Positions 10,708 through 53,191 of a stretch of DNA of 64,000 nt are shown piece after piece (position 1 is the first letter of the stretch; the number at the start of each line of letters is the position of its first letter). This stretch comes from a virus, in IMG/VR virus record IMGVR_UViG_3300031952_000002, positions 1-64,000 of that record. One strand, given 5' to 3'. The notes beneath the pieces were generated by a model, which did no database searches, was not told the DNA's origin, and worked only from the letters and a program-made list of their open reading frames with translations. The translations under genes and the position numbers were made by a program.

Positions 10708-10734
10708 TTATCGGCTTTTTGGTCAAAAACTTTA
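10708..10734 (-). promoter_or_regulatory. Sigma-28 (FliA/SigD)-type promoter
   Basis: On minus, TAAAGTTT-N11-GCCGATAA matches the consensus at all 16 positions. It lies 31 bases before the Fis-type gene start and directly after the 33-bp repeats. Confidence 0.85.
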
Positions 10735-10737
10735 ATA

Positions 10738-10827
10738 GTACTTTTACGTACCAAAAAAGTATTAAATGTTGTACTTTTACGTACCAAAAAAGTATTAAAT
10801 GTTGTACTTTTACGTACCAAAAAAGTA
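10738..10827. repeat. 33-bp tandem repeats with the shared dyad
   Basis: Units begin at 10738, 10771 and 10804 (third truncated by the terminator). The 33-bp period is close to three helical turns. Two complete dyads AAAGTA-N10-TACTTT span 10756-10777 and 10789-10810 (read on either strand), with half sites at both ends. The array abuts the -35 element of the promoter at 10708-10734, the usual place for upstream activator or repressor sites. The same 22-bp motif occurs in the 41-bp array at 7666. Confidence 0.85.
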
Positions 10828-10852
10828 ACCCCGGTTAAAAAACCAGGGTTAC
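10819..10852 (-). terminator. Rho-independent terminator after the 1523-residue gene
   Basis: On minus, GTAACCC and GGTT pair with AACC and GGGTTAC (one mismatch pair between), followed by six T. It ends transcription from 15449-10878 and insulates the regulator promoter. Confidence 0.85.
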
Positions 10853-10877
10853 AAACAAAGGACTAAAAAATGATAGA

Positions 10878-13800
10878 TCAGGTAGAGGTAGAAATGATCT
10901 GATAGTCTACGCCAACAGCCCACTCAATCGTACTACCCGCCGTCCCAAACACTACAGGTACAATAGTTGTTCCGCCCGATATTTGCAAGGTAGCAGCATA
11001 AACATTACCGTCACCAAAAGTACCAAAGATATTGCTTTGATAGTCTCCGGCAGCTTCTACAAGTAAGGTGCCAGGATTATAAAAGAAAGTACCTTCAAGC
11101 TTAAACGATGCCCCACCTAAAGTACCGTTAGATCTACGGCCAACCAGAGACACGCTGACCCTAGCCGCCTGATTAGCTCCAAGAGTTACACCAGCTCCGT
11201 TGATAGCCCAAGGGGCTGCACCTGAACTAGTATTAGCCCAAGTTTTACGTGACCAGGCGCTGCCCGTATAGTTTGTGTGAGTTTTTAGGTATTCGTAACC
11301 TGTCCATACATCTCTTGGTTTGTTGTCTTCGTTACCAATAACAAAAACCTGGTCGCTATTAGGAGACCTAGGACCAAAAATACCCCCAGGAACTGTGCCA
11401 AGGTTACCGCTACCGTTTATTTCAAGGCTGCCTGTAAGGCTAAGAGCTGCTCCTCCAGTAATGGAATCACCGGCCCTAAAATCCACTGGGGCACCAGGAA
11501 TAGTAACAACAATACGGCCACCATCATAAGCCAGCTGCATAGTAACATTACCTGCTAATTTGCTGACAGCTGATCCATATGCGTTAAGTAAACGGAAACG
11601 AAGCCGAGATTTAGGAGCAAAAGCTCTAAGCAGGGTGATCTTACCTTTTGGTCCACCATAAGTTTCCTCATAGTCTACACTAGCTTGGCGCACCGTGTCA
11701 TTGGTAATAACAAGTAATTCTTCACCGCTAAAAGCTGGCTCAAGACTAGCCTTAAATACGCAAGGGTCTGGAAATTTGATAAAAGAACCTGATTGAATAG
11801 CTGTACGTCTATTTGGCGGCAACACTATAGTAGTGCTAATGGGGATTTCAGGTGATACAAAAGCTGGGTTGCCTGGATTGTTAATGGTCATGCTAGTGGT
11901 GGCACCATTTTGGAACAGCGTAGCTCCAGTAGTGAATGTACCGGCATACACATGAACCAAAACATTAGTGGCACCAAAATTTCCACCAGGCATACTTACT
12001 GGAGTATTTTCAATGGTTTCCGTTACGTTAGCAGTACCATTAAGGACATAAGCGTAGGCGGTTGGATTAACTTGACTACCTGTGTAGATATAAGATCCAG
12101 ACCGGATTGTACCAGCGCCTGTGACTGGAATCAAAACTGGGTACACACTTTCATCATACACTGGGTATGAAATGGCTGTGTTAACCCGAGCTGATTCCCT
12201 GTTCATTTTACGTATACCCAAAGTCAAATTGTCTTGGTTTTGGATAATATAGTTTGTACGCAAATAAGTAATTTGTTGACCTGGCACAACAGCAGTTATT
12301 GGCTCTTTAATAACAGCAGTTAAGCTAGTAAGAGGGTAGTCAATAGTGTATGTATGGAGCACACTAAAACCATCCACAAAAGTCAATTTGTCATTATTTT
12401 GGAAGCCTAATGCTGGTCCAGACAAAAAGGAGATTTCACGGGTTAGGTAGTTAACATTGTTGACGTTTCCGCCAACTGTCAAGACTTCACTGGCACTATA
12501 GTCCCCAGTGGGATCAATAAAGGTATAGTTTGGATTAATAGCAGCTTCAGTGTTAGCACCGGTATAAATCAAAAGGTTGGTTGTACTGTTGTCACTGATG
12601 TTACGAGTTTCACCAACACTAAGCTCTATGCCGCGCACATAAACCTTGCTGTTGCCTGGGCCGCCATCTTGTCGCACACCAATCCAATAAACATCTGTAC
12701 TGGCTGGTACTTCCCAATGAGGCTTAACTGTAACTATTGGGTAATAACCCCTACAATAAACCAAAGCACCCGTAGCTGTTGGTCTTTGTTGTGGTGTTGG
12801 ATTTTGGTTGTTATCTGTAACTAAATTAAATGTATTTGTCAAAATAGGTGTACCTGGAGTACCAGCAATTTTGTACCAATAGTTTTCAGTTTCTTCACTA
12901 AATTTGACGTAGTCACCAGACTGCAACGGAGCACCGGCACCGTCAACTGGTGGAACTGGTCCAATTATTGTGTAACTGTTAAAGGTCTGGTAAGTAGTGT
13001 TGTCACTTACTGGCTGATTTCTGATCAGCTCAACAAACAAAACGTCACCGTTTTCCAAGTAAGCCGTACCAGTAATACCACCCGTATTAAACCTGTTAGC
13101 CAAAGAAGTGCCTGTGGCCGTAGCTGTAGCAGGAATAGTAAAGGTTTTTTCGCCAATAATACCCTTAATCAAAATGTCGCTATCCCATGCAACTGGGCCT
13201 GGGTATGGGTTGTTAGGGAACCGAGCATAAGTCTGATCTGAGCCTGGGTTAATATAACTGCTAGGTGGAGGTACAATAAGGGTAGAGTCAGGTGAAAAAG
13301 TTCTTGTGATTTTAAATATAGTTGGGCTAACATATACCAAAGAAACATCAACATATGTACGTATATACGTACTAATGCTAGGTTCACCATAAATAGTAAA
13401 ATTGATTGGACCTGGGGTTGTAACATAGCCATGTGGGGTAGCTGTAGTTACCGTTATTTCGTAATTAGGTGAACCAGAGTTCACCATTGACACTACTTTG
13501 GACGGGTTAGCTACAGCACTGATCGCTACGATACCATCAACCTGGATTGGGCCATTACCTGCTGGCAGAGCTGGCAGAGTGTCTGGACCTAACACATAAG
13601 AAAAGTTGGCATCATCATAACAAGTAAATATCACATCTGCTAAATTATAGCCGTCAACCGCACAACCGCTTAGTGTGGCTGTAAAGCTATATTCATCATA
13701 ACGAACTAAAGCACCAACACCAACGGTAGCTGTACCTGTTGGTGTAGCGGGTGCAGTATATGTGATTGTAGTGTCTGGATTAACAGTAATACCAATAAAT

Positions 13801-15449: not shown

Positions 15450-15548
15450 GGGTAGACCTTTATTTGGAGTTGACTTGGTAGGTAGGATATGGGAGCCTAC
15501 ACAAAGATTAAGTTAACGGGTTATAACCCACAAGTCAAGAGGTTTTTT

Positions 15549-15974
15549 ATGTCATATATGACCAAATTTCTCAAGGATATTGAGAAGTTCAATGAAATGT
15601 ATCGTTTGCCAAACAACACCAAACCAACAAATCTTGGTCCAGAAAGAGCCTATAATTTCAAGAAGATCCTTTGGGAGGAAGTTGAAGAAGGTGAACAACT
15701 AATTATGCATCTAGAAGACCAAGGCTTCGATCTGGACACCCAGGCCGAATTGGCTGACTGGCTAGGTGACATTATCGTTTATTGTGCCAGCGAAGCCCGT
15801 AGGTGGGGCATTCCAATGGACAAAACCTTGAAAATTATTATGGAAAGTAACTTTAGTAAGCTTGACTCGGCTGGTCAGCCAGTGTATGATGATAGAGGCA
15901 AGGTCTTAAAGGGACCTGACTATTTTAAACCCGAGGCTAAGCTAAGCAAAATGCTTAAGCGGCGTAACAAATGA
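15549..15974 (+). CDS. MazG-like nucleotide pyrophosphohydrolase
   Basis: 141 residues. An all-alpha MazG-like NTP pyrophosphatase is suggested by FNEMY near the N-terminus, the metal-binding EEVEEGE (E-E-x-x-E) and the second acidic helix ELADWLGDIIVY (E-x-x-D). The C-terminal NFSKL...GKVLKGPDYFKPE is typical of the phage-encoded subfamily. It hydrolyses NTP or dNTP to NMP and pyrophosphate, which may cleanse pools or lower alarmones. I prefer the ATG at 15549 (AAGAGG six bases upstream) over the in-frame ATG at 15489, which has a weaker site. First gene of the plus block; pairs functionally with ThyX and the RNR. Confidence 0.8.
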   Translation: MSYMTKFLKDIEKFNEMYRLPNNTKPTNLGPERAYNFKKILWEEVEEGEQLIMHLEDQGFDLDTQAELADWLGDIIVYCASEARRWGIPMDKTLKIIMESNFSKLDSAGQPVYDDRGKVLKGPDYFKPEAKLSKMLKRRNK

Positions 15975-15981
15975 GGTGTTT

Positions 15982-16839: not shown

Positions 16840-17306
16840 GTTTTTTTAATCTAAAATTCTTTATAGTTGAACCTCAAAAACAAATAAGAATCCAAGAGAT
16901 ATTGTTTGATCTTGGGTACAAATATAAAGAAGATTTTGACACTATCAGACTGGGTGACAAAGAGTTATATCTTATAACCTTTGATGATGGTTCTATGGTG
17001 TCTAGTGATGACTTAGAAGATGATTATGATCTTACATATAGTCACCACAAAGAGCTTGATCTAAGGTCCCTGATTGTCATGGAAGGACAACACAAAGGAC
17101 TAGGTCAAGCACCTAAAAATGTTACCAATATGGCTATTAATCAAGCACTAAAAGATGCCAAACATTTGTGGCTTTTATTGGATTGTTTAATGGACAATTA
17201 CAAACAGGTTCATCAAACAATTGACTACCACCAGGCTGTTGCACTTCAAATGTATTTATGTAATATGGAAACAATAATACAAAAAACAATAGACCGGACA
17301 GATTAA
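16836..17306 (+). CDS. Hypothetical cytoplasmic protein
   Basis: 156 residues, GTG start overlapping the protease stop (GTGA). Acidic (DDGSMVSSDDLEDDYD), mixed alpha/beta, no signal or membrane segment. No family recognised. Overlaps the next gene by one base, so part of the same translational chain. Confidence 0.6.
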   Translation: MSFFNLKFFIVEPQKQIRIQEILFDLGYKYKEDFDTIRLGDKELYLITFDDGSMVSSDDLEDDYDLTYSHHKELDLRSLIVMEGQHKGLGQAPKNVTNMAINQALKDAKHLWLLLDCLMDNYKQVHQTIDYHQAVALQMYLCNMETIIQKTIDRTD

Positions 17307-17856: not shown

Positions 17857-17872
17857 AACATTGTTTCAAATT

Positions 17873-17909: not shown

Positions 17910-17913
17910 GCGT

Positions 17914-17940
17914 TAAAGTTTTTCCAGTTTCAACCGATAA
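17914..17940 (+). promoter_or_regulatory. Sigma-28 (FliA/SigD)-type promoter
   Basis: TAAAGTTT-N11-ACCGATAA, 15 of 16 consensus bases with canonical spacing. It lies 30 bases before the ATG at 17971 and is expected to drive the 17971-21306 gene chain. Confidence 0.85.
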
Positions 17941-17970
17941 CGTTTAGGTAAGCAGCAATAAGGGGGATAT

Positions 17971-18210
17971 ATGAGTTTTGAAAGAATGATTAGGGAACTA
18001 GAAATGCAGCGCGAATTTGGCGATGCATGCCTGACAGATCCGGACCAGATCGTTGCTGCGCTTATGGCTGGACGGGCTATGAGGAGCTATATAAAATTGG
18101 GTACTACCGTTAATGGGATGACATTACTTGGACATATTCCTACTGAAATGGCTCATGAAATTGTCTATACTTTGGAAGCTTGGGACAAATCTGTAAAGGA
18201 ACAAAAATGA
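17971..18210 (+). CDS. Hypothetical protein, first gene of sigma-28 operon
   Basis: 79 residues, helical and charged, no membrane segment. Strong SD (AAGGGGGAT). Overlaps the next gene start by four bases. No family recognised. Confidence 0.6.
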   Translation: MSFERMIRELEMQREFGDACLTDPDQIVAALMAGRAMRSYIKLGTTVNGMTLLGHIPTEMAHEIVYTLEAWDKSVKEQK

Positions 18211-18584
18211 AGTTTTTATTGATTTTATTGGTTTTTTTTGCACTAGAAGCTCAGGCTAAAGTAACTGAACTTACTTTAGACCTTAAACGTATGCCATTTA
18301 ACCTTGACTATTTATTTCCAGACCAAACTGATTGGGACTATGAAACACGTCTAAACTTTAGCGGTGAAATTGGCATTTTTTTTATGGACAACAAGGTTAC
18401 CGGTCGTACATATGACAACCGATACCACTACGTGTCTTGGGGTTTTGATATGGGTTTTCGCGTCACCGATTGGTTAGATGTGGTTCATACTCATCTTAGC
18501 CAGCACGCTATAGATATTTACCGTGAAAAGTTTCCAGTTACTGATAGTTATGGTGCTAGACTTAACTTCTTAGACAAAAAGTGA
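18207..18584 (+). CDS. Exported protein
   Basis: 125 residues from the ATG at 18207 (AAAGGAAC upstream), which overlaps the preceding stop. Signal peptide residues 1-17 (FFALEAQA|K). The mature part is rich in aromatic beta strands (YHYVSWGFDMGFRVTDWLDV) and ends in GARLNFL, reminiscent of a short outer-membrane or periplasmic beta structure. A small surface-modifying protein is possible. Function not recognised. Confidence 0.6.
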   Translation: MKFLLILLVFFALEAQAKVTELTLDLKRMPFNLDYLFPDQTDWDYETRLNFSGEIGIFFMDNKVTGRTYDNRYHYVSWGFDMGFRVTDWLDVVHTHLSQHAIDIYREKFPVTDSYGARLNFLDKK

Positions 18585-18591
18585 GACAAAA

Positions 18592-18780
18592 ATGATTAAA
18601 AAGTTGCGCAATCGTTTTCCTGATGCCACGTTTGAAGTAGCTTTTACAAATGAACTGGTAGTTACCTACAAAAACGCAAGTCTTATTGTTGACAAAACAT
18701 GGGGACTTAACGAAAGTATCAAAGAAATCAACGACTTTATACGTGACATTAACATAGAACTGGAGCAAAAACATGGCTAA
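18592..18780 (+). CDS. Hypothetical small protein
   Basis: 62 residues, alpha/beta, soluble, no known motif. It overlaps the next gene by eight bases; the SD of the next gene lies inside it. Confidence 0.5.
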   Translation: MIKKLRNRFPDATFEVAFTNELVVTYKNASLIVDKTWGLNESIKEINDFIRDINIELEQKHG

Positions 18781-19471
18781 GAAACCTAGCAAACCTTTAC
18801 CTAAACTAAAGAAAAAACCAATAAAATCAAAAACTAAGAAAAAAAAGCCAACGGTAAAAGCCAAGAAAAAAGCTTTAAGTGATTTTATTGACAACATGGA
18901 AAAATTTGATATTGGTTTTGATCTTGACGAAGATGTTTGGACATTTGAACCCACTTTAAAGGCAACAAACAACACTCAAACAGTTAATTATAAACCAGTT
19001 TCCGGAGAAACTTTATTGAAGTGTGAAAACGTAACAATCACACCAAGCTTAAACTCTGATATAATGTCTGCTGCTTTGTCTATTCCATATAGTTATAAGA
19101 TTGTTATGACCGAAGTTCCTGAAAACCTTAACGATAAATCCGACAACAAAGACAAATGGACAAAAAATGCTCCTAACCATGAATGTTTAATAATACACGA
19201 TGAAATCATTTTAGATCTTAAATACTATACCGACGGCAATGACAGGAAAATTGTCGGAGATATAGTACCAGCTAATGGATATAACCCAGGCCAGATATCC
19301 TTGGAATCAGTTAACAAAGGAGAATCTAAGCTGGTGTACACAAATCATGACCGTGTTGTGTCTATGCCAATTTGCGATGGTTATGATTTGTACCTTTTAA
19401 TGAAATATTGGTTTGAAACCGCTGAAACCGACCACTTAGCTGAAACTGTTATTTACCAAAGGACCAAATAA
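18773..19471 (+). CDS. Hypothetical protein with lysine-rich tail
   Basis: 232 residues. Residues 1-35 are almost half Lys/Pro (KPLPKLKKKPIKSKTKKKKP), like histone-H1-type or nucleic-acid-binding tails. The remaining ~195 residues form an acidic globular domain without recognised family. SD GGAG. The tail suggests binding to DNA, RNA or an acidic surface; this is inference from charge only. Confidence 0.6.
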   Translation: MAKKPSKPLPKLKKKPIKSKTKKKKPTVKAKKKALSDFIDNMEKFDIGFDLDEDVWTFEPTLKATNNTQTVNYKPVSGETLLKCENVTITPSLNSDIMSAALSIPYSYKIVMTEVPENLNDKSDNKDKWTKNAPNHECLIIHDEIILDLKYYTDGNDRKIVGDIVPANGYNPGQISLESVNKGESKLVYTNHDRVVSMPICDGYDLYLLMKYWFETAETDHLAETVIYQRTK

Positions 19472-19806
19472 TGGACCAAGGTAAAAAAATACACTACACC
19501 AAAACAGGCAGATACGCTCCTATTAACAAAGCTTTTGACAAGCCCGTTCTTAGAAAATTCTGTAAAACTCATGGTCATACACCCTGGATAATAGGGTGGT
19601 ATAGGCACCCCGGTGTGTGTATGTTTTATGTGGCAAATACCGGAATGTGTGGGTGCAGCGAAATTGGACACATAATGTCTGGCATCCCAGAAGACTATCC
19701 AATAAAATACCCAGAAAAGCCTTGTCATAATGGGATACAAATGATGTATTATTGCGTGAAGTGTATTAAGGCTGGTGGATATGGCCCAATAGGAGCTGAT
19801 GAATGA
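19471..19806 (+). CDS. Cysteine/histidine-rich protein
   Basis: 111 residues with 8 Cys and several His (CKTHGH, GMCGC, CHNG, CVKC), consistent with one or two zinc sites. Strong SD AAAGGACC; overlaps both neighbours by 1-4 bases. No named zinc-ribbon family identified. Confidence 0.6.
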   Translation: MDQGKKIHYTKTGRYAPINKAFDKPVLRKFCKTHGHTPWIIGWYRHPGVCMFYVANTGMCGCSEIGHIMSGIPEDYPIKYPEKPCHNGIQMMYYCVKCIKAGGYGPIGADE

Positions 19807-20666
19807 TCAAAGCACAAATCGTATTAGACAGTATTGGTCACCATGGTATCCGTTTGACCACTATGGCTCTGGAATACCCACGCTACATCCACGCTGAATT
19901 AATGACACACAGGCAGTTTAGCAGAAATGCCAGTAGTTCTAGGGCTATACCTGTATCAAAGATGATTGAAAAAGCTAAAAGCGAAATGGTTATACCTGAT
20001 TATTGGGGTAAAAACCAAAAAGGAATGCAAGCTAGTGAACAGTTAGACCACGGTCTCAGGATTGAGGCCACTAGGGTGTGGGTAGCTCAAGCGGAATCGG
20101 CTATTAAGGCTGCTGCAGACTTGTCTAACCTTGGCGTACACAAACAAATTGCTAATAGGGTCTTAGAGCCTTTTACGACTATCACGGTGCTAGTTACTGG
20201 TACTAAGGATGCCTATAGTAACTTTTTTGCTTTGCGGAACCACAAAGATGCTCAGCCAGAAATCAAAGGTTTAGCTGAAGTGATGTTGAATGCATACAAG
20301 GCCAGTATACCTGGTATACTTAGTGTAGGCGATTGGCACATGCCTTATATTACCTTGGAAGACACCCAATCTTTGGTTGACCTGGACTACGGTTCTTTGC
20401 TAGAGATATTGCTTAAGGTGTCCGCTGCTCGGTGCGCTCGGGTTAGCTACTTGACACATGACAAAAAAAGTCCAGATATGGTACAGGACTTAGATCTTTA
20501 CGCTAAGTTGGTTGGAGGTAAGCCGATCCACGCAAGTCCCCTAGAACACCAAGCTGAATTGATGTCTAGTGCTAGTTATCAGTCAGCTAACTTTAAGGGA
20601 TGGAAACAATACCGGCAAACCATGCCTAACCAATACATTACCGACTATTTTGAGCAAGCTGAATGA
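19803..20666 (+). CDS. thyX: Flavin-dependent thymidylate synthase
   Basis: 287 residues. The ThyX signature is present as THRQFSRNASSSR (residues 35-47; canonical RHR-x7-S), with the first Arg replaced by Thr, as in other phage ThyX-like proteins. RCARVSY (near 213) and HASPLEHQA (near 250) match the conserved substrate-binding C-terminal motifs. The enzyme methylates dUMP to dTMP using methylenetetrahydrofolate, FAD and NADPH. SD AGGAG; overlaps both flanking genes. It fits phage DNA precursor supply together with the RNR and MazG-like enzymes in this window. Confidence 0.88.
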   Translation: MIKAQIVLDSIGHHGIRLTTMALEYPRYIHAELMTHRQFSRNASSSRAIPVSKMIEKAKSEMVIPDYWGKNQKGMQASEQLDHGLRIEATRVWVAQAESAIKAAADLSNLGVHKQIANRVLEPFTTITVLVTGTKDAYSNFFALRNHKDAQPEIKGLAEVMLNAYKASIPGILSVGDWHMPYITLEDTQSLVDLDYGSLLEILLKVSAARCARVSYLTHDKKSPDMVQDLDLYAKLVGGKPIHASPLEHQAELMSSASYQSANFKGWKQYRQTMPNQYITDYFEQAE

Positions 20667-20866
20667 CTAAACGTTATTTGTTAACTTTCTTGGATTTTTG
20701 TATATTTGCTTTATTTTTTGGTGGATTGTGGTATGTTCAAGTTGAAACAATTGACTGGTTTTATGATCTAGATTATGGGTTATATTTGATTGTGTTTTTA
20801 CAATTTATGGCTATTTTTTTTGTGTCTTGTAGTTTAGCAAAATACATTGAATGGAGAGAAAAATGA
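20663..20866 (+). CDS. Small two-span membrane protein
   Basis: 67 residues with hydrophobic segments about 7-26 and 38-58 and charged ends. ATGA overlap with thyX. Function unknown; may interact with the membrane protein encoded next. Confidence 0.55.
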   Translation: MTKRYLLTFLDFCIFALFFGGLWYVQVETIDWFYDLDYGLYLIVFLQFMAIFFVSCSLAKYIEWREK

Positions 20867-21306
20867 AAAAAACTCTTTTTTTTATAACATCTTGTTTTTT
20901 ATGGTCTTATTGTATACTTTTAGTTTTTTTATTAAAAGTGCAAATAACTGAAAAAGCAGAAACAATACAATATTCAACCCTTTTGTTTGGTGGAATAGTT
21001 TTACATTGTTTATGCTTGACTACTATTGAGCTAATTAAGAATCCAAAAAAGTACTATCGCAGACTGTTTAGTCAACGTGTAAACATTTACCGTATGAGTG
21101 CTTTGTTTTTTGGATGTCATTTAGGTGGAACAAAAGATGATCTTATGGTGGAGATTTTTCTAGGTAAGCGTAGTGTAATTATTGATTTATCTTTGCCTAG
21201 TCATCGAAATTGGGTAGATAAAAAGGACGAAGAAATCGATGAATATCTGATAAAAGAATTTATCAATGAGACTAAAGTTTCTGACCAAAATGCCGATAAG
21301 GTTTAA
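20863..21306 (+). CDS. Membrane-anchored hypothetical protein
   Basis: 147 residues from the ATG at 20863 (GGAG eight bases upstream). Two hydrophobic segments (about 4-24 and 37-57) are followed by a soluble, basic then acidic domain. The final codons contain a complete sigma-28 type promoter (21273-21299). This is the last plus-strand gene before a 22-kb minus-strand structural block. Confidence 0.6.
   Translation: MKKTLFFITSCFLWSYCILLVFLLKVQITEKAETIQYSTLLFGGIVLHCLCLTTIELIKNPKKYYRRLFSQRVNIYRMSALFFGCHLGGTKDDLMVEIFLGKRSVIIDLSLPSHRNWVDKKDEEIDEYLIKEFINETKVSDQNADKV
21273..21299 (+). promoter_or_regulatory. Sigma-28 (FliA/SigD)-type promoter facing opposing genes
   Basis: TAAAGTTT-N11-GCCGATAA, a full consensus match inside the 3' end of the preceding gene. 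Downstream on plus there is no gene until 43.3 kb, so transcription would be antisense to the minus-strand gene at 21342 or yield a short RNA. Confidence 0.75.
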
Positions 21307-21341
21307 GTAACTGCCAGTAGCCTACCATAATGGCCTGCCAA

Positions 21342-21809
21342 TTACCCGCCGTAAGATACCCACATACCTGTGAAACTCACACTGGCCTGTAGCGTTTGCC
21401 TAGCCTGGAACGCTACCTGCCAGCTCGTCACTTTGCAAAACTCTATACTAAGTAACAATTCACCTGTTTGGCGGTCATAAAAACGGAAATGACAATACCG
21501 GCTTGGGGCTTGCTGAGGATAGCTGTTGGTTTCAGATTGACTATCTACCGTTGGAGCCACTAAACCCATACGGATAGGGTCAGTGCCTTTGAGCATAAAT
21601 AGGTTCATAGAGCCTTGGACCATACTCTGACCAGCTGCCAGGGCAATCTCTTGGGGGAATACCGAGTCAACGCCCATGATGTTTTGGGCACCAAGCGACT
21701 GGCTGAAGTTCAGGCCGCTGGCGTAGCCAATGGTTCTTTCAACTGCTTCACCAGATTCGTAAGCTATGGCCAACCTGACGCTAGCGCCAGTATATAACAT
21801 AGTTTGCAT
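21342..21809 (-). CDS. Tail tube-like protein (paralogue of main tube)
   Basis: 155 residues. YTGASVRLAI...RTIGYASGLNFSQ...IALAAGQSMVQGSMNLFMLKG aligns by eye with the tail tube at 56550 (FTGARAKVTI...GLFSNASWSIRQ...VQLTLTGYRVI), indicating the same tube fold. Located in the baseplate region, it is more likely a tube initiator or hub-proximal ring than the bulk tube. Its TAATG start overlaps the stop of the large upstream gene. Confidence 0.65.
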   Translation of the reverse strand: MQTMLYTGASVRLAIAYESGEAVERTIGYASGLNFSQSLGAQNIMGVDSVFPQEIALAAGQSMVQGSMNLFMLKGTDPIRMGLVAPTVDSQSETNSYPQQAPSRYCHFRFYDRQTGELLLSIEFCKVTSWQVAFQARQTLQASVSFTGMWVSYGG

Positions 21810-24493
21810 TAAATTTGTGCCTCAAAAAACGTGTCTGCCCCGTAAATATATACAGCTTCACTGGTAGGCGGATCTAAAACCGAGTCACTGCCTCCCTGAT
21901 TTCCCCAACCTTGATCTCCTGGATAAATAATCTTGATTTCCATTTTGATACCAAGGGCCGTAATAGCTGAAATAACTTCCTGAGCATATATGCGCCCTTG
22001 AGCGGTGCCGGTCACGAATAATGGAAAATCTTTACCGTCTTCACTAGGAGTGTAGGCATCAGCCGAACTTAGCTGGGTGATGTCTGATCCGGCTTGGTGG
22101 TTTTTGGTGTATTGATTGCTTGGGTCCAGAAGCACGATAGACCTGGCTCCATCTACCACACCAATAGCATAGCCTTGGCTGGCCGACAATATCGCTGGAG
22201 TGCCAGATTGACATACAAAAATGGTTGGCGATGGAGTGCTAACCACTTGGTAAGTTCCATCCATTGCGGTAAGGGTACCGCTAATAATGACTTGACTGTT
22301 CACTAGCAATCCGTGCGGCCCAATGGTATTAACCGTGATCAAAAAACCGTTTTGGCTGATAGACAAAATAGGCACACTGGGCGGACTGTTGAGCGGCTGG
22401 ACAGCTATGTACCTAAACGGACCCTCTTCATTGTCCTGGTCAAGGTTTAGCATAAACAAACCAGACTCATTAGGTAATGTGCCGTTTATTTGGATATTAG
22501 TTAGTGTTGCACCGGCTAGTATTGGCTCTCTGGTGTAAGCGTAATGGGTAGTAAGAGTGTAATTGTCTTGGGCATCTGTGGCATAAGGTCCTGGCCATTG
22601 GTCTGCTGGATTTTGGCTATCTGTATCGATAATATTTACCGTAATAGAACAAGTGTCGTCTGTGACTCTGGTGCCAAATGGGTCAATATATGATTTAATT
22701 AAATGAGGCTCTGTACACACAACAGTAGTGGTAAATTGTTCTCTATGGACCGAGTTTATAGCTATTGACCGAACTGGGGTACTAAAGGTTGCTGTACCTC
22801 CTATAGCGGTCATATCATAGCCATTTTGCCTGAAACTAAAAGCATAGTCACTAATAACTACAATCTTTTGGTTCCATTCAGCAGTAGTTAAGTCGTTATA
22901 TACCCACTGACCTTGCTGGAGTGTGGTGATCGTAAATGGTGTGCCGCCTTCGTTAGCGTCTGGGGTACGTGGGCCAGCAACAAGGTCTGTAGCTGTTACC
23001 GTGTCTGATGCTATAGTAGTAGACCACCAACCGGCTGAGTTAATCACGGCCTGAACTGCACTAGCCACAACGTTAGCCGGGCTACCAGACACTATTTCAA
23101 TTTGACTGTATTGGTTAGCTATAAGTAACATAGCTGCTGGAGGGGTCATGGTTGTGTTGTCTACATCTACCCAAAACCCGTAATAACCGTATTCATATGG
23201 GATAAAGAAAAAAGTGTCTTGAAGTGATCCGCCAACATCAGCTACGCACAAAACTTCAGTTACTTCATGACCTAATGCCGTATTAAAACCAGGCGAAGAG
23301 TTACCGGCACTTACGTCAAAAGTAAGGCTAGATTGACCAACGTGCATATATGCACCGCCGGGCAGTTCCCTAGAGATAATGCTGGTAGTAGCTGGCAAAT
23401 AGATTTTTAGGTAGTCGCCAGGTTCATAAGCTAAAGCGTATCGAGTTTTGTTGTTTGGTACGTTTTTCTTAGGAAGCATAAACATAACGTCAAAATTGGT
23501 AGCTTGGATCAAGGTATAGCTATAATAAGTTGGAGGGGCATTAGGTGGTGGGCTGGCTCCAGCCTGGACCGCGCTAAGTCCACCAGTTTCTTCTACAACA
23601 ATTTCAAAGTAACCTGCATCAAGGTTAGGTGCATTTGTTGCAGGTAAAACGTTAACTATGTCATAGGTACCTGAAAAGCCGTTTTGTTCCCACATTGCAC
23701 CATACATCATAACCTTGTCGCCAGGTTTAACTGACTCCAAAGCTGGTTTAGTATTACCAGACCATCTAAAGCGCAACACGCTACCAGATGGACGGGTTAC
23801 CTGCCAAGCGGTATCGGGCATAGCTAGTGATGTCGGTCTTATTTGAGGGAATTGTAAATGGGTTTGAGCTTTACCGCCAAGTATGGTGACAGTAGAATAA
23901 GGACCTTTAGCTCCACCAAAAACTCTAACATATTCTTTTTTGTTGACCAAGTCATAGTCTACATCAGCGTAACCATTTAGGTTTAAGCTATTAATATAAC
24001 GGGTTATAACGTCAGCCACTTCTGAAGCAGTAGCCGCAGCAATACTAGCAAAATCACTAGAATAAAAAACCACACTACGAGTAATGCCATCTTCTAAACT
24101 AAACAACAGGTCGTCGCCATCTTCCAGATTAAAAGGGCCAAATAGTGTGGAAGTTGTAAAAGCTCTAACAGCTGCCGGGCCATAAAAGATTTCTAATACA
24201 GATTGGATAACCTCAACAATTTGCTTTTGAGCTGTGATCTTAATACCAAGGCGACGAAAAGCTAGATCACTCATACCAAGTTCTGGTGGACGGGTTATAC
24301 CTTTTTCGCTTAAGCGTTTGTCTAAGTATGGGCCAATAGCAGTTGATATGGTTAACTGGTCAGTTACCGATATACTAAGATTTTCTTGTTTTTGGGCTTC
24401 ATCGGCCAAAGCGGACACTAAAGCATCTGAATTAGTCCCAGTGATAAAGGGGGCTATATAGCGTCTGATGTCTATTTCTTTGTTTACACTCAC
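21809..24493 (-). CDS. Large baseplate component (wedge-like)
   Basis: 894 residues. The N-terminal ~120 residues are helical (DEAQKQENLSISVTDQLTIS, ITRPPELGMSDLAFRRLGIK), typical of baseplate proteins that dock to the hub or J-like protein. The remainder is beta-rich. A PHG module (GPHGLLVNSQVIISG, about residue 726) is shared with the genes at 10878 and 26936. Translationally coupled to the tube-like gene. A wedge role is inferred from context and shared modules. Confidence 0.65.
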   Translation of the reverse strand: MSVNKEIDIRRYIAPFITGTNSDALVSALADEAQKQENLSISVTDQLTISTAIGPYLDKRLSEKGITRPPELGMSDLAFRRLGIKITAQKQIVEVIQSVLEIFYGPAAVRAFTTSTLFGPFNLEDGDDLLFSLEDGITRSVVFYSSDFASIAAATASEVADVITRYINSLNLNGYADVDYDLVNKKEYVRVFGGAKGPYSTVTILGGKAQTHLQFPQIRPTSLAMPDTAWQVTRPSGSVLRFRWSGNTKPALESVKPGDKVMMYGAMWEQNGFSGTYDIVNVLPATNAPNLDAGYFEIVVEETGGLSAVQAGASPPPNAPPTYYSYTLIQATNFDVMFMLPKKNVPNNKTRYALAYEPGDYLKIYLPATTSIISRELPGGAYMHVGQSSLTFDVSAGNSSPGFNTALGHEVTEVLCVADVGGSLQDTFFFIPYEYGYYGFWVDVDNTTMTPPAAMLLIANQYSQIEIVSGSPANVVASAVQAVINSAGWWSTTIASDTVTATDLVAGPRTPDANEGGTPFTITTLQQGQWVYNDLTTAEWNQKIVVISDYAFSFRQNGYDMTAIGGTATFSTPVRSIAINSVHREQFTTTVVCTEPHLIKSYIDPFGTRVTDDTCSITVNIIDTDSQNPADQWPGPYATDAQDNYTLTTHYAYTREPILAGATLTNIQINGTLPNESGLFMLNLDQDNEEGPFRYIAVQPLNSPPSVPILSISQNGFLITVNTIGPHGLLVNSQVIISGTLTAMDGTYQVVSTPSPTIFVCQSGTPAILSASQGYAIGVVDGARSIVLLDPSNQYTKNHQAGSDITQLSSADAYTPSEDGKDFPLFVTGTAQGRIYAQEVISAITALGIKMEIKIIYPGDQGWGNQGGSDSVLDPPTSEAVYIYGADTFFEAQI

Positions 24494-24502: not shown

Positions 24503-24655
24503 TTAGTGTTTTGAATTTGAAACACACTTAACGCATTTTTCAAAAAGATACATTGTATTATGAGATACAAATTGATTAGAAAAAGATTGTGTCCATTGTG
24601 CCCCGCAACACCTACAGCCGCACTTTATGTCAACAGGGAAAATGGCCTGGATCAT
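24503..24655 (-). CDS. Small zinc-ribbon protein
   Basis: About 50 residues if started at the ATG at 24655. CGCRCCG...CVKC supplies two Cys pairs for one zinc. The frame can be extended upstream to 24772 with TTG, but that region is better explained by the overlapping gene at 24678. Weak AGG upstream. Start uncertain. Confidence 0.45.
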   Translation of the reverse strand: MIQAIFPVDIKCGCRCCGAQWTQSFSNQFVSHNTMYLFEKCVKCVSNSKH

Positions 24656-24677
24656 TGTGCCAATACCTATGTTTCTG

Positions 24678-24833
24678 TCAGTCAGTATTGTCTGTTGTTT
24701 TGGTGGGTTGAGTATTGTCAGTAGTTTTTTTAACATTATAGCAATACCCGCAAGAACATTTAAGCCAGCCAAGATTAGCTAACCTGGTTTCTGGGTGGTA
24801 GATCATCCACGTGGAGCACTTAGGACATATCAC
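24678..24833 (-). CDS. Small zinc-ribbon protein (51 aa)
   Basis: GTG start at 24833 overlapping the stop of the upstream gene (GTGA). The protein begins MICPKCSTWMIYHPETR and continues with KCSCGYC, giving CPxC and CxCxxC knuckles for a zinc ribbon; the tail is Thr/Asp/Asn-rich. It is too short for default gene calling, but motif and coupling support it. Role unknown; small ribbons often bind nucleic acid or RNA polymerase. Confidence 0.6.
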   Translation of the reverse strand: MICPKCSTWMIYHPETRLANLGWLKCSCGYCYNVKKTTDNTQPTKTTDNTD

Positions 24834-25102
24834 TTGAGGTCATCGTTTCTAACTACCCTCAGTCCTTTTGGTTTTTTTGTGTCTGGTGGTTGAATTTTAT
24901 CTAAGCGAGCATTTAAGGCCAACATTCCACCTGAAATAATTGTATCCCAAGTACGCACCATGTCAACCTCTTTATTATAAACAGCTTCTACTCTGGCGTG
25001 GATCTCTTGAAATGATCTTAGCCCCTCTTGACTTAGCTTGAGGTTTACACTATATCCACTTGTTGGCTGTTTGTCTTTTTTCTTGAACCAATTCCAAAAC
25101 AT
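24830..25102 (-). CDS. Hypothetical protein
   Basis: 90 residues from the ATG at 25102, chosen because GGAGG stands a few bases upstream. The longer frame to 25159 would translate a terminator hairpin. The Trp/Lys-rich N-terminus (MFWNWFKKKDK) may lie on a membrane; the rest is helical. No known family. Confidence 0.6.
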   Translation of the reverse strand: MFWNWFKKKDKQPTSGYSVNLKLSQEGLRSFQEIHARVEAVYNKEVDMVRTWDTIISGGMLALNARLDKIQPPDTKKPKGLRVVRNDDLK

Positions 25103-25117
25103 ACGGTCCCTCCAAAG

Positions 25118-25147
25118 AAAAAGCCTCCCTAAGAAGATTAGGGAGGC
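25118..25147 (-). terminator. Rho-independent terminator
   Basis: On minus, GCCTCCCTAA pairs perfectly with TTAGGGAGGC across a 5-base loop, followed by TTTTTC. It lies after the gene at 25177. Confidence 0.9.
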
Positions 25148-25176
25148 AAAAGTAAGCACACGTCTGGGGGTATGTA

Positions 25177-25392
25177 TCAGTCTTTTCTTAAAGGTAAGTT
25201 CGTGATTCTTTTAGTAATTTTGTCAGAATCTCTTATTTCTTCAAACTGTTTAGTTTGCCCACAATAAGTACACTTGAAGTAGGTGAAATGAAAGAGGTAT
25301 TCCTCTTCCCAGTGGTGGGTGCACCAACTGGACTTTTCTTCACTGTAGTCACCTTCACTACCAAAACCTAAAGAACCTGTACCCCACCACAT
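25177..25392 (-). CDS. Small protein with CxxC and HH motifs
   Basis: 71 residues from the ATG at 25392 (GAGG six bases upstream); a TTG at 25404 is less likely. CTHHWEEEY and KCTYCGQTK could form a zinc site. Aromatic N-terminus (MWWGTGSLGFG). Follows the transglycosylase and ends before a terminator. Confidence 0.55.
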   Translation of the reverse strand: MWWGTGSLGFGSEGDYSEEKSSWCTHHWEEEYLFHFTYFKCTYCGQTKQFEEIRDSDKITKRITNLPLRKD

Positions 25393-25400
25393 ATTAGACC

Positions 25401-26114
25401 TCAATTGCTTGATTTTGCTTGAGTTGTCTCTTCTTTAATTTTTTCCAGCTTGGCAATCCGGTGTTCTTCCTGCATGTCAAACATGCTACGGACATAAGCA
25501 TCAGTTTCTTGAGCACCAACTCCACTATTATTTTTCATAGCCTTGAGGGTAGAGCCATTACTGCCACCGTTATAAGCCGCAGATGCTTTTGCTAAATTCC
25601 CATTATAAGTGGCCGCTAGGCCCTTAAAGTGGGTATACCCCAAAAGGATATTGATTTCTGAGTCAAAAAGATCGTCAGAAGTCAATTTACCCATTTTAAG
25701 ATTGTCAGCTTCAGCTTGAGCAGTGGCTGGCATCATTTGAGCGATACCTTTAGCTCCAGCAGTGGAAGTTAAATTAGTTCGGTATTGGCTTTCCTGGCAC
25801 ATCAAAAAGATAAAAGCTTCTTGTGTGCGGCGGTCTCCACCAATACTACCAAGAATACGGTCAATCTGGCGTGACAACATAGCTTTTTTAACTTCACTGA
25901 GTCCATTGTTTTTGCTGCCGGTACATTTTGGTGTGTTCATCATCCATATAGTCACTTCTGCCAAGGTTTCTTCTGGGAGTTTTTCCTCTATAACAACTGT
26001 GGGTGCAACAACAACACTTTTTTTGTTTATGTCATAGCTATAAATGGCAAACGCTAATAACAGCGGCGATAAAGCCATGGCAGCTTTAAAAAGATTTTTA
26101 GTAGAAAGAAACAT
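25401..26114 (-). CDS. Membrane-anchored lytic transglycosylase (SLT domain)
   Basis: 237 residues from the ATG at 26114 (AGGAG upstream). An N-terminal signal-anchor (about 9-27) precedes a soluble SLT/goose-lysozyme-like domain. The catalytic Glu108 is in CQESQYR, GAKGIAQMMPATA gives the substrate-groove motif, and AAYNGG (about 172) is the third signature. It cleaves peptidoglycan MurNAc-GlcNAc bonds with 1,6-anhydro formation. Not tied to a virion protein, so either a lysis enzyme or a wall-remodelling enzyme expressed from the sigma-28 type promoter at 26492. Confidence 0.85.
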   Translation of the reverse strand: MFLSTKNLFKAAMALSPLLLAFAIYSYDINKKSVVVAPTVVIEEKLPEETLAEVTIWMMNTPKCTGSKNNGLSEVKKAMLSRQIDRILGSIGGDRRTQEAFIFLMCQESQYRTNLTSTAGAKGIAQMMPATAQAEADNLKMGKLTSDDLFDSEINILLGYTHFKGLAATYNGNLAKASAAYNGGSNGSTLKAMKNNSGVGAQETDAYVRSMFDMQEEHRIAKLEKIKEETTQAKSSN

Positions 26115-26177
26115 AACGGTATCTCCTAAATTGTTTCTAAAGCGACTATGCCCCAAAATGGGTCCAAAGTCAATGTT

Positions 26178-26354
26178 TCAGCTCAGAAGCTTGTCCATAC
26201 AAACGTAACCTATTGCAAGTATTGCCCCAACTACACTAGATCCAATCAGCTCATAAAAGTAATAAAACCGACCTTTTTTAGTTACAAACAAAAAACGTAC
26301 CCAATATACCAAGAACACTAGACTAGTAAACATTCCCCAGGCTGCTATAAACAT
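26178..26354 (-). CDS. Small two-span membrane protein (58 aa)
   Basis: ATG at 26354 with GGAG 8-9 bases upstream, stop TGA at 26178. Two hydrophobic segments (about 2-24 and 37-52) separated by a basic linker VTKKGR. Immediately upstream of the transglycosylase in a sigma-28-led unit. A holin or partner of the anchored enzyme is possible from size, topology and position only. Confidence 0.55.
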   Translation of the reverse strand: MFIAAWGMFTSLVFLVYWVRFLFVTKKGRFYYFYELIGSSVVGAILAIGYVCMDKLLS

Positions 26355-26491: not shown

Positions 26492-26518
26492 TTATCGGCT
26501 TTTTTTGCCAAAACTTTA
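26492..26518 (-). promoter_or_regulatory. Sigma-28 (FliA/SigD)-type promoter
   Basis: On minus, TAAAGTTT-N11-GCCGATAA, full match. It follows a terminator within three bases and drives the 26354-25177 unit with the transglycosylase. Confidence 0.85.
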
Positions 26519-44142: not shown

Positions 44143-44327
44143 CCAAGGATAACTTAATCAAATTGGGCAGTTATAAAAAAGAAGTCCATGAAAAAGAAGA
44201 GATCTTACGTTGGCAAAAAGAACAAAAAACAGCCCAACGTTGGAGATTTGCTGGTGTTTGTATAATGTTTGTCAGCGCTATTGGTGTTACCGTGTCTTTA
44301 AGTCTGTTATTTTCTAAATTGTTCTAA
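44139..44327 (+). CDS. Small single-span membrane protein
   Basis: 62 residues. Charged helical N-terminus (HEKEEILRWQKEQKTAQRWR) followed by a single membrane span (about 37-58). An N-in single-span protein of this size beside lysis genes could be an inner-membrane spanin-like or antiholin-like protein. Its stop overlaps the start of the sigma-28 type promoter at 44325. Confidence 0.55.
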   Translation: MTKDNLIKLGSYKKEVHEKEEILRWQKEQKTAQRWRFAGVCIMFVSAIGVTVSLSLLFSKLF

Positions 44328-44351
44328 AGTTTTTCCAAAAATAGCCGATAA
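44325..44351 (+). promoter_or_regulatory. Sigma-28 (FliA/SigD)-type promoter
   Basis: TAAAGTTT-N11-GCCGATAA, full match, starting within the stop region of the preceding gene. It heads the lipoprotein metallopeptidase gene 202 bases downstream. Confidence 0.85.
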
Positions 44352-44553: not shown

Positions 44554-45252
44554 ATGCTAAAGTTTTTACCGGTTTTTTTGTTTTTGGTTGGATGTCTTGG
44601 CACTAATAAAATAATTAACAATTATTCCACCTACCCTGCGTATTATAGTCAATATGATTCAGATTTCCGTAATATTGTTATGGATTTTGAAGTTGATGCA
44701 GCTATGCAAAACTCACCAGCAGATATAAAAAATATCAAATTAATCAAAATGGTAGAGGGTGAAATAGTTGGTAATGATCCAAACAATCCATTACCTATAA
44801 ACGTTATCGCTATTTGCCAAAGACAAAATAACAACACCAATAACTATATACATGTAGAAATTAGCTGGTGGTATGATGCTTCAGATTATCAGAGAAAACA
44901 GGTTTTGTATCATGAACTCGGGCACTGTAGCACGCTAAGTCTAGGTCACAATGATACCAAATTTAAATGGTCTTGCGGTATTGGGTATAGCATTATGAAA
45001 TCTAGTGCTGTTCCTGGCATTATAATGGAAAAATGTTGGCCAAGTATGGTGCAAGAGCTTTTTGACCCTCAATACAAGGCCATAACCGACAACAATGATT
45101 GTAAAAATGATGTATGTAGTGTAAAAAAACAAGAAGAACTGAGTCCAGGAGAATTGTTGTGGTGGGCTGTGGTTACTTATGGCTATGGGATCTTTATTAT
45201 TGTAACTTTGATGTGGATTTTGGCGATGTTATTTGAAAAGGGAGACCGCTAA
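44554..45252 (+). CDS. Lipoprotein zinc metallopeptidase
   Basis: 232 residues from the ATG at 44554 (AAAGGAG). Signal peptide ending in a lipobox LVGC (Cys14), then a ~170-residue periplasmic or surface domain with HELGHCSTLSLGH (His120, Glu121, His124, His132), a metzincin-like HExxH plus third His with two extra residues in between. Three further Cys (CKNDVC region) could form disulfides. A hydrophobic segment near the C-terminus (about 201-226) adds a membrane anchor. It likely cleaves envelope or wall peptides. Head gene of a sigma-28 type promoter; overlaps the convergent gene at 45229 by 24 bp. Confidence 0.7.
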   Translation: MLKFLPVFLFLVGCLGTNKIINNYSTYPAYYSQYDSDFRNIVMDFEVDAAMQNSPADIKNIKLIKMVEGEIVGNDPNNPLPINVIAICQRQNNNTNNYIHVEISWWYDASDYQRKQVLYHELGHCSTLSLGHNDTKFKWSCGIGYSIMKSSAVPGIIMEKCWPSMVQELFDPQYKAITDNNDCKNDVCSVKKQEELSPGELLWWAVVTYGYGIFIIVTLMWILAMLFEKGDR

Positions 45253-45585: not shown

Positions 45586-45610
45586 GATTAGTCCCCCTAC
45601 CAACTAAAAA

Positions 45611-46132: not shown

Positions 46133-46134
46133 GT

Positions 46135-46641: not shown

Positions 46642-46651
46642 ATTAATTTCC

Positions 46652-48148: not shown

Positions 48149-48175
48149 GTAGAGCTTCCTTTAGTGTATCAATTA

Positions 48176-50203: not shown

Positions 50204-50213
50204 TTAATACCTC

Positions 50214-51170
50214 TTAAAAAATTGATTGTAATCTGATAGATCCCGACCATCGATAATTATCTGAAGTTGGGGACTTAACATTAAAAGTTATAGAGCTTGT
50301 GCCTAGAGTATACGACACATTAAAACCATTACTAGATTTAACCGTAAAATCTGACTGCCAACCTGAACCTTGTAATTGAGCACTAGAGGACTGGCAATAA
50401 ACAACCATAGACCTTTTAAAACACGCCCTATCTGTTCCGTCAGTTTTTCTAGCAATAACCTCAAACTCTACACTATTAACAGATGGATCTGGAATATTTA
50501 TAGTATAGCAAGTTTGAAAAGTATTGGCATTGGTTTCAACATAAAATGTATCCTGTTGTAATCCCGTAGCATTAGCCGAAACGTGACTTTTTTGTTCAAA
50601 TTGCATTCCAGGACTAGAAGTACCTAAACCAAATCTTTGATTTGTAGTAAATCTAGCGGCTTCAATTGAGTTTGTTTTTAATACAAGCCCTTGAAAATCA
50701 TTGGTACCTAAAAAATTAGGTCCAGCTGTTGTTCCGTAATTGCCGCTTACGTCCCAATTAGCTGGATCTCCAGCTATAGCCAAATCAACACTAGCTACAA
50801 CATATAAAATACCATCAGTAGCGCTTTGCCGAAGAACAACAGCAATAATTGGACCACCAATAACACTAGTTAAATTGCCAGAAGAACTGCAATACAAAGA
50901 GGTTCCAACAATCCAAGAAGAGGTGTTTAGCGATCTCATTAATCCAATACAGGTAACAGTACCTTTGGTTCCGGCTAAAATATCTGATTGAGCTATACCA
51001 AAACTAGCGTAAACATTAGAATTTCCCAATTTAACTGTTGGGAATTGTATACCAAACCCGTCAATACGTACCACTTGACCTTTAGTAATAGTTAAAGCTT
51101 CCGAGTTTTCAACTTGTTGACTACTTGGAGCATGTAAGTCTGTATAATCTAACTGTCTATGGTAACTCAA
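50214..51170 (-). CDS. Tail fibre protein with shared C-terminal domain
   Basis: 318 residues. The N-terminal ~150 residues form a compact beta domain (LTITKGQVVRIDG...VASVDLAIAGDPANW) seen at the base of other phage fibres. FGLGTSSPGMQFEQ forms a short shaft. The C-terminal ~115 residues (VEFEVIARKTDG...YRWSGSIRLQ) match the tip of the fibre at 48176. Lies between the attachment proteins and the long fibre. Confidence 0.75.
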   Translation of the reverse strand: MSYHRQLDYTDLHAPSSQQVENSEALTITKGQVVRIDGFGIQFPTVKLGNSNVYASFGIAQSDILAGTKGTVTCIGLMRSLNTSSWIVGTSLYCSSSGNLTSVIGGPIIAVVLRQSATDGILYVVASVDLAIAGDPANWDVSGNYGTTAGPNFLGTNDFQGLVLKTNSIEAARFTTNQRFGLGTSSPGMQFEQKSHVSANATGLQQDTFYVETNANTFQTCYTINIPDPSVNSVEFEVIARKTDGTDRACFKRSMVVYCQSSSAQLQGSGWQSDFTVKSSNGFNVSYTLGTSSITFNVKSPTSDNYRWSGSIRLQSIF

Positions 51171-51185
51171 TGAAATTGCTCCTAT

Positions 51186-51821
51186 TTATATAACTACTAC
51201 GTTACCATTATTATCAATAACTATAGCTGGATCTTCTTTAATGTAGGTACTGGAATATAGATCATATTGCACTCTTATAGATCCAGCTGGAGTATATTCA
51301 TGGGTAATTATATCATTATAATTTACTAGGTTATCTTGAGTGTGAAAATGGTCCACCCTGTTATATATTATACCCCCCAGTTCTGGTCTAGGTGGGGTAG
51401 TGATATTGGCGTTAAACATACTTCCACCAGTGCTGCTTTGGCGAGCAACAGATGGATCGTTTATGACCACAAACATTCTGCCGTCTAAGGTCGCGGTTCC
51501 TACATAGTCCTGTATTAAAAATCCTACGTCCCCTGGAACAACCGTTATAGTATTGGTCAAGTTGTCATAGTTAGATACCTTAAATAGTTTACCTGTATTG
51601 GGTCCACCAGAGGTCACCCTAAAGTAACATCCATTTTTAAGCCAATTTGGTATCATAGCAGGACTAGAAAAAGTGATAGTCTGGTTAGCAGCACTAAAAG
51701 CCATAGTGCCAGATGATATCTCACAATAGTCATCAACGCCAGTTAGCTTTTTAGATCTACCACCCCAAATAACATTTAAACCTATTAATTTTTTAATAAA
51801 CTGTGGCCATGTTTCTAGCAT
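51186..51821 (-). CDS. Fibre attachment/baseplate connector protein
   Basis: 211 residues, beta-rich. It contains NRVDHFHTQDNLVNYND, a His-rich turn of the type found in connector loops. Overlaps the upstream gene by seven bases. No sure family; virion role inferred from the operon. Confidence 0.55.
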   Translation of the reverse strand: MLETWPQFIKKLIGLNVIWGGRSKKLTGVDDYCEISSGTMAFSAANQTITFSSPAMIPNWLKNGCYFRVTSGGPNTGKLFKVSNYDNLTNTITVVPGDVGFLIQDYVGTATLDGRMFVVINDPSVARQSSTGGSMFNANITTPPRPELGGIIYNRVDHFHTQDNLVNYNDIITHEYTPAGSIRVQYDLYSSTYIKEDPAIVIDNNGNVVVI

Positions 51822-53137
51822 GGGTTGGTATCTCCGGTATATATATCTGCCCCGTCAACATCACTATATGCAGTAGAGACTCTGGTTACCTCTAGAGCAC
51901 AGCCGTAACTGAAATTAGTGCTTTTAATTTTATCCCCAAGAGATCCGTTTAAATTGGCAATTACATCTACAGTAGCAACAGGTCCAGGCACAACAGAAAT
52001 AAAAGCAAACCTACTGTCTAAATAACCAACACCGCTACCAGCAACAAAAGTATCACCAATTACTATACTGTTATAAATACTGAACTTCAAGTCTATAGTT
52101 TCATTGGCCGTTAGTCCAGTAAAGGTAACCTTTTTCTGGCTGATGTTATAGCTAGTGACAGTTAAAGTAAGCCCAACATTTAAGCCGTTGATTACTTTAA
52201 TTTTCCTGCCTATCACTTTTAGCCACTCTGGTACCGTCTTGAAAACCATGGTACCAAGGCCGCTATTTATCACCACTTGGTCCGAAGACTGGTTAAAGGT
52301 GCCGTAGTCCCCAGATACTATCTGGTGTATGATACCGTCATTTGCACCGGTTCCCGCTGCCTGGAAATACTTAGCTTTTTTGGCCGTAAGGTATTCTGGA
52401 GCTAGAGCATTAAAGTAGATGGTATTTGTAGTAAAGATCACGTCACCCGATTGAGTTAAATAGGTGTTTTCGTAATCATTAAAGCCAGTTATCGTATAGG
52501 TAGTTTCGTTTACTGGACTACCATCTCCCGCAGTTTCATAATAATACAAAGAGCTTGGGTTAGAGGCCATAAACGGCAAAGGGGTAGTAAAAATGGCTAT
52601 ACCAGCTGGAACATCACACAAGCGCATACTACCCAAATAACCCTTAGATTGGTCTCTAACAAATTCCCTTATTTCCCTAAGGTTATATTGGCAATCATAG
52701 ACAAATCTTGCCTCAGGGTAGTCGGTGTCTAGGCTGCCTTCTTGGGTGGTAAGGTAATTACCGTGTTGGCTAACCAGTGCGGACCTGACAGCCAATATAG
52801 GCTCTTCTGCTAAGGTCATCTTGCCGGGTTCTGTGCCTACCGGGTAAACCCTGGCTTGTTCTGGAGCATCTAACATACCGCCAGTAAACTGAGCTAGATT
52901 CAATGAACTTAGGTCTTGATTGTTTTCGAGCTTGACCGTTATAAATCTAGCGTCCCAGACCCTAGCTATGACCAGCTCGGTACTAAAAAGACCATTTTTA
53001 CGCAAAATTAACTTTTGACCAACAAACAAACCGGTAGTAGTATACACTTCTATGGTGTTACCATTTACTGTTATATTCTCGATGGTTATACGGGGCCAAG
53101 TTTGGGCCGTCAACCCTGAGCCTATTTGCTTGTCCAC
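51815..53137 (-). CDS. Tail/baseplate structural protein
   Basis: 440 residues, beta-rich with a helical segment near 145-165 (YNLREIREFVRDQSKGYLGS). First gene of the fibre operon and divergent from the sigma-28-led plus cluster. Likely connects fibres to the baseplate. No named family recognised. Confidence 0.6.
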   Translation of the reverse strand: MDKQIGSGLTAQTWPRITIENITVNGNTIEVYTTTGLFVGQKLILRKNGLFSTELVIARVWDARFITVKLENNQDLSSLNLAQFTGGMLDAPEQARVYPVGTEPGKMTLAEEPILAVRSALVSQHGNYLTTQEGSLDTDYPEARFVYDCQYNLREIREFVRDQSKGYLGSMRLCDVPAGIAIFTTPLPFMASNPSSLYYYETAGDGSPVNETTYTITGFNDYENTYLTQSGDVIFTTNTIYFNALAPEYLTAKKAKYFQAAGTGANDGIIHQIVSGDYGTFNQSSDQVVINSGLGTMVFKTVPEWLKVIGRKIKVINGLNVGLTLTVTSYNISQKKVTFTGLTANETIDLKFSIYNSIVIGDTFVAGSGVGYLDSRFAFISVVPGPVATVDVIANLNGSLGDKIKSTNFSYGCALEVTRVSTAYSDVDGADIYTGDTNPC

Positions 53138-53163
53138 TTACGCCCCTTTTTGACCACCGGCAC

Positions 53164-53191
53164 TAAAGTTTTCATACAATTGTGCCGATAT
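53164..53191 (+). promoter_or_regulatory. Sigma-28-type promoter, 12-base spacer
   Basis: TAAAGTTT-N12-GCCGATAT. It has both boxes but one extra spacer base and the terminal T typical of Bacillus SigD sites. It lies 38 bases before the TTG start at 53230. Confidence 0.7.

Follow-up and report, generated by a model that had tools for sequence, protein, structure and literature searches.

Sigma-28-type sites ahead of accessory genes in an environmental myovirus related to Myxococcus phage Mx1

Introduction

Phages are usually viewed as beginning on the housekeeping sigma factor of the host and then turning to factors of their own. In T4-type late transcription, a small phage sigma without full region 4 (gp55) acts on a -10-only element. 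The phage described here resembles T4 (gp55) and phages phiEco32 and 7-11 in that its sigma also lacks full region 4 and probably reads a -10 element only. However, it is an RpoD-like protein of 331 aa and is separate from the sigma-28 sites that are the subject of this study.

The closest described counterparts of those sites are the bacterial sigma-28 (FliA/SigD) class 3 flagellar promoters. They have both boxes, the 11-nt spacer and the interval to a purine start in common with the phage sites, but the genes behind the latter are phage accessory, regulatory and DNA-metabolism genes rather than flagellar ones. Of 140 attack-phase promoters mapped in Bdellovibrio, 92 are FliA-type (TTAAG-N16-CCGATA), and FliA has been proposed as the attack-phase master regulator (PMC3627812). 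The attack-phase promoters of Bdellovibrio bacteriovorus are similar to the present case in that FliA serves as a global switch for non-flagellar genes; however, they are chromosomal with mapped starts, and the phage -35 box, TAAAGTTT, is stricter (PMC3627812). Prophage flagellin systems with TldR also link a temperate-phage system to the flagellar regulon, and a FliA-dependent promoter has been noted in related csrA-tldR loci (PMC13418256). Those systems concern flagellin expression in lysogens, whereas here a lytic-type phage's own accessory programme is concerned (PMC13418256). In the open-access literature we found no account of sigma-28 driving the programme of a lytic phage; the promoter type is old, and its use as a phage programme appears to be undescribed in the open literature.

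Results

The virus record is a linear contig of 136,843 bases, and the window, the whole stretch of DNA presented here, is its first 64,000 bases. Myovirus genes are present (portal, sheath, baseplate wedge, terminase, GroEL and ribonucleotide reductase), and among named phages the closest is Myxococcus phage Mx1, with 46.5% identity in the portal and 36.8% in the sheath. Thirty four ORFs are common to Mx1 and the record, at a mean identity of 34%, including portal, sheath, capsid, GroEL, polymerase, helicase and sigma. Judged by an Mx1-like core of portal, sheath, capsid, terminase, GroEL and a helicase-sigma pair, the record is a myovirus related to Mx1. However, Mx1 is without sigma-28 sites, and nearly all cassettes behind the sites of this phage are absent from it. 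Forty-seven ORFs are common to the record and G051, an IMG/VR contig of 159,805 bases, and fragments of this phage, or of one nearly identical to it, occur in IMG/VR sample 3300031746. The GroEL-like chaperonin is encoded at record 111240-113000 and the large subunit of ribonucleotide reductase at window 54836-56458; a 2OG-Fe(II) oxygenase is encoded at record 130029-130733.

Six sites in the window had been claimed in the first-pass annotation, which set a whole-record scan against shuffled sequence as a check. Sites were defined by the -35 box TAAAGTTT, a spacer of 11 or 12 nt and the -10 box GCCGATAA, with at most one mismatch over the 16 bases. The whole 136,843-base record contains 11 such sites against 0.017 expected, the mean of 60 second-order Markov resamplings in which the largest count was 1; the motif is therefore not equally frequent in resampled sequence. 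All six window sites were recovered at the coordinates and on the strands claimed, as were the full 16/16 match of four of them and the spacing (N11 in five, N12 at 53164). The exact pattern occurs at four sites in the window against 0.00 expected in shuffles. No site in the record has exactly two mismatches, and the next-best matches, with three, are background-like. Over the record the spacer is 11 nt in 9/11 sites and 12 nt in 2/11, and a purine lies 8 nt beyond the -10 box in 11/11, a signature in the sequence only. Because both boxes, the spacing and the purine start signature at the expected distance are present, the sites are very likely sigma-28-class promoters. The sites and the genes behind them in the window, followed by the five sites outside it, are as follows.

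10708..10734 (-): sigma-28-type promoter, 16/16, N11; predicted start ~10700
10470..10676 (-): 68-aa Fis-type HTH_8 DNA-binding protein (Pfam PF02954, E 1.9e-11)
10738..10852 (-): terminator-like stem (10825-10852) and 33-bp tandem repeat (10738-10827)
17914..17940 (+): sigma-28-type promoter, 15/16 (ACCGATAA), N11; predicted start ~17948
17971..21306 (+): small-gene operon and ThyX behind 17914
19803-20666 (+): ThyX (Thy1 PF02511, E 4e-15)
21273..21299 (+): sigma-28-type promoter, 16/16, N11; overlaps the 3' end of ORF 20863-21306
26492..26518 (-): sigma-28-type promoter, 16/16, N11, behind a terminator-like stem; predicted start ~26484
24503..26354 (-): cassette behind 26492, with a small membrane protein, SLT lytic transglycosylase and small proteins
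25401-26114 (-): SLT lytic transglycosylase (SLT PF01464, E 1.5e-17)
44325..44351 (+): sigma-28-type promoter, 16/16, N11; predicted start ~44359
44554..45252 (+): putative lipoprotein with HExxH motif, ~200 nt behind the 44325 promoter
53164..53191 (+): sigma-28-type promoter, 15/16, N12, final T
53230..54356 (+): four-gene cassette behind 53164
54012-54356 (+): Rrf2-like HTH protein, last gene of that cassette (Rrf2 PF02082, E 1.6e-11)
Outside the window: sigma-28-type sites at 75062 (+), 110955 (-), 127217 (-), 128751 (+) and 136334 (-)

The sites are placed as promoters would be. Eight of the 11 touch no called gene, another two reach three bases into a gene end and the one at 21273 sits in the last codons of an ORF, so that 10/11 are intergenic or at an edge, in a record whose intergenic DNA amounts to 4.9% by simple gene calls. 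A ribosome site and start codon follow within 60 nt at 8/11 sites of the record. Terminator-like stems stand upstream of 10708, 17914, 26492 and 110955, the last outside the window; several sites had been described as standing directly behind a terminator, and in the window such stems were found at those three. The accompanying claim that five window sites stand immediately upstream of genes held for 10708, 17914 and 53164, each followed within 60 nt by a ribosome site and start, and is slightly weaker for 26492 and 44325, which head cassettes where the first clear start is 137 and ~200 nt away. Overlapping sigma-70 promoters are no more frequent at the record's sites than in shuffled sequence, and no Rfam RNA was found in the first 123.8 kb of the record.

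A closer inspection of the window reveals the kinds of genes involved. The gene for the Fis-type protein is the first behind the 10708 promoter, its start 31 nt downstream and behind AAAGGAG. The 33-bp repeat directly upstream of that site is intergenic and has 2.7 identical copies; a second intergenic tandem repeat, of 41 bp and 4.4 copies, lies at window 7636-7814. The 17914 site, whose -10 box opens with A instead of G as its single mismatch, is directly behind its terminator-like stem. At 26492 AAGGAG is present with no canonical start close by. A Pfam search with the HExxH lipoprotein gave no match. The reverse strand of the 53164 site carries a candidate late element, CTTAATCTTAT, considered below. 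No gene was found behind the 21273 site, which is directed antisense into a tail-gene operon on the other strand (21342-24493); this stretch (window 21273-21500) may give an antisense or non-coding RNA, or the site may be an orphan left by gene loss. Outside the window the sites head a dCMP deaminase gene, several small membrane proteins and a small-protein gene that precedes an SbcC/SMC-like recombination gene. None of the 11 heads structural genes. Nearly all genes behind the sites are absent from Mx1 and G051, the exceptions kept in relatives being ThyX (46% to Mx1) and the 110955 operon.

The same pattern is found in other environmental phages. Its exact form occurs in at least 117 IMG/VR stretches, a number of contigs carrying several sites, against 31 stretches for the reversed pattern, never two on one. 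At up to two mismatches, 161 sites were counted in 50 IMG/VR records and the reversed pattern gave 4, a comparison in which 48/50 records had been chosen by the exact pattern, about 49 of the 161 sites are the selecting matches themselves and a few records are near-duplicates. Nineteen of the 50 carry four or more sites, and by protein comparison the arrays span about ten unrelated lineages among the matches listed. Small genes stand behind the sites in 20 stretches examined. Of 105 sites pooled from 16 phage records, this phage included, 95 are followed within 90 nt by a ribosome site and start, compared with 565 of 1,900 random places (30%). Of the pooled sites 87% have A or G at position +8 and none has C there, and 63% carry T at +7, which amounts to a signature of transcription starts where they would be expected. 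The repeated bases downstream of the sites differ by phage, being GGTTTAnGTAA here, as if each phage had copied its own promoter. A FliA/WhiG gene was found in 0/19 array-bearing records; weak Sigma70_r4 matches occur in 5/19, one of them above cut-off.

Two further arrangements were observed among these phages. Sigma-70 elements overlap the sites beyond shuffled expectation in G015, G022, G030, G041 and G043. In L144 and L145 (both G022), L151 (G030) and L149 (G043), TTGACA falls between the two sigma-28 boxes and a -10-like hexamer follows it after 16-18 nt, an arrangement with the appearance of overlapping sigma-70/sigma-28 promoters. The densest array, L137 (G021) 458-5037, has eleven sigma-28-type sites on a single strand in 4.6 kb, apparently one for each small gene.

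The record encodes a sigma factor of its own, and a short repeated element was also found.

Record 115710-116705 (L008:11910-12905): sigma-70-family protein, 331 aa, the only sigma in the record
Window 53190, 61492; record 68827, 79437, 91302, 93973, 126909, 136077 (-): CTTAATCTTAT or close variants

This sigma could be imagined to have a sigma-28-like specificity and to read the promoters itself, which would make the phage independent of the flagellar programme; we regard this as improbable. The gene adjoins the helicase gene, as in Mx1. A two-sequence profile of the protein aligns to RpoD over E. coli residues 375-565 only: it stops after region 4.1 and the helix-turn-helix that reads the -35 box is missing. 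In Mx1, L169 and L170 the homologues stop at this point too, making four family members in all. FliA-type sigmas are more distant from the protein than RpoD is. A single-sequence fold reached pLDDT 43 and was set aside. No FliA/WhiG family member (TIGR02479) was found in the record, a possibly incomplete contig whose missing sequence could hold a sigma-28 gene, and the record gave no match to Sigma70_r4 (PF04545) and no FlgM anti-sigma. A phage-encoded sigma-28, one of two options raised in the first-pass annotation together with a homologue search, is thus unlikely, there being no FliA family match and the only sigma lacking a -35-reading domain; the search disfavours it and suits a host sigma-28 better. 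Moreover, the sites are missing from relatives that carry this sigma: at up to three mismatches none occurs in Mx1, G055 or G056, of which G055 and G056 are short. G051 has none at up to two mismatches, in a contig that ends before the expected sigma position. By this comparison the sites are particular to this lineage. Since they do not follow the phage sigma across relatives, a host sigma-28 is indicated.

Short repeats in the record are leads to later transcription. TAATCTTAT, found before the structural genes, has 8 exact copies in the record against ~2 expected, 6 of them with a ribosome site and start, and is not enriched in Mx1 or G051; it is a weak candidate for a late element, a lead only. 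Copies of CTTAATCTTAT lie 16-71 nt upstream of mostly structural genes, and may be promoters at which the phage's own sigma starts late transcription.

Discussion

Taken together, the lack of a phage FliA, the truncated sigma and the siteless relatives make a host sigma-28 the most likely reader. Our explanation, which we hold with considerable confidence, is that the flagellar sigma factor of the host (sigma-28, FliA) uses the sites as promoters, which would couple accessory genes to the swimming state. The geneless 21273 site and the two Bdellovibrio phages without an array, described below, weigh against it. Within it, recognition of the sites by the host sigma-28 is likely, and gating of the accessory and DNA-metabolism genes by motility is plausible. 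A host FliA is assumed here, and recognition, timing and the late promoter are all read from sequence. Upon entry of phage DNA into a motile cell, host RNA polymerase with FliA would initiate ~8 nt beyond GCCGATAA. Short leaders would be made before the small accessory genes, the two HTH regulators, ThyX, dCMP deaminase, the recombination operon and the lytic transglycosylase, so that these genes would become tied to the host's swimming state. Transcription of the structural genes would probably follow later, through the phage RpoD-like sigma on a -10-only element such as TAATCTTAT.

Two other readings are less probable still than a phage sigma. The sites could act as decoys: host FliA would be titrated away, or drawn to the DNA with nothing productive transcribed, and motility would thereby be shut down during infection. 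The near-perfect consensus would be expected to bind FliA tightly and the 21273 orphan has no gene behind it; however, a ribosome site and start at promoter distance in 8/11 and the conserved start-site signature argue against this, and eleven sites per genome would be few for a decoy before replication, which leaves it very unlikely. Use of the sites by another host sigma of related specificity, or by a phage or host DNA-binding protein, has a similarly slim chance, for although the phage-specific downstream bases could belong to a larger recognition site, both boxes and the spacing are the sigma-28 consensus, the motif is not palindromic, the start signature is at the expected distance and the downstream bases vary between phages, as expected if each copies its own promoter cassette.

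The myxobacterial host of Mx1 has no flagella. Two scans of 84,980 genomes in search of the host, one by portal alignment and one with the HExxH lipoprotein, gave no relative. The isolated Bdellovibrio phages phi1422 and phi1402, used as positive controls, have no such array, which speaks against a Bdellovibrio-like host. A predatory host had been put forward with the original sites; it is attractive but unproven, the attraction coming from kinship to Mx1, which infects Myxococcus, and from the FliA-type attack-phase promoters of Bdellovibrio (PMC3627812). FliA polymerase would be abundant for a phage entering an attack-phase Bdellovibrio cell, in keeping with that earlier suggestion. The wider proposal of a phage programme keyed to the host's flagellar sigma stands in so far as sigma-28-class promoters are present far beyond chance and in promoter-like placement; recognition by host FliA we infer. 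We suggest only tentatively, and would not be surprised to be wrong, that a polyphyletic class of environmental phages places part of the infection programme under the flagellar sigma factor of the host, which would gate productive expression by the swimming state, and that the host here is a Bdellovibrio-like predator with a FliA-driven attack phase.

Set against the usual view of phage transcription, the consensus found at eleven promoters in this phage, and in the arrays of about ten unrelated lineages, belongs to an alternative host sigma that is linked to motility. If the explanation is true, the motile state of the cell would decide which viral genes get made. Behaviour would then be linked to infection, and the pattern would flag phages of motile hosts in metagenomes. 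These data suggest that some viruses turn genes on via the transcription factor of the host's swimming state.
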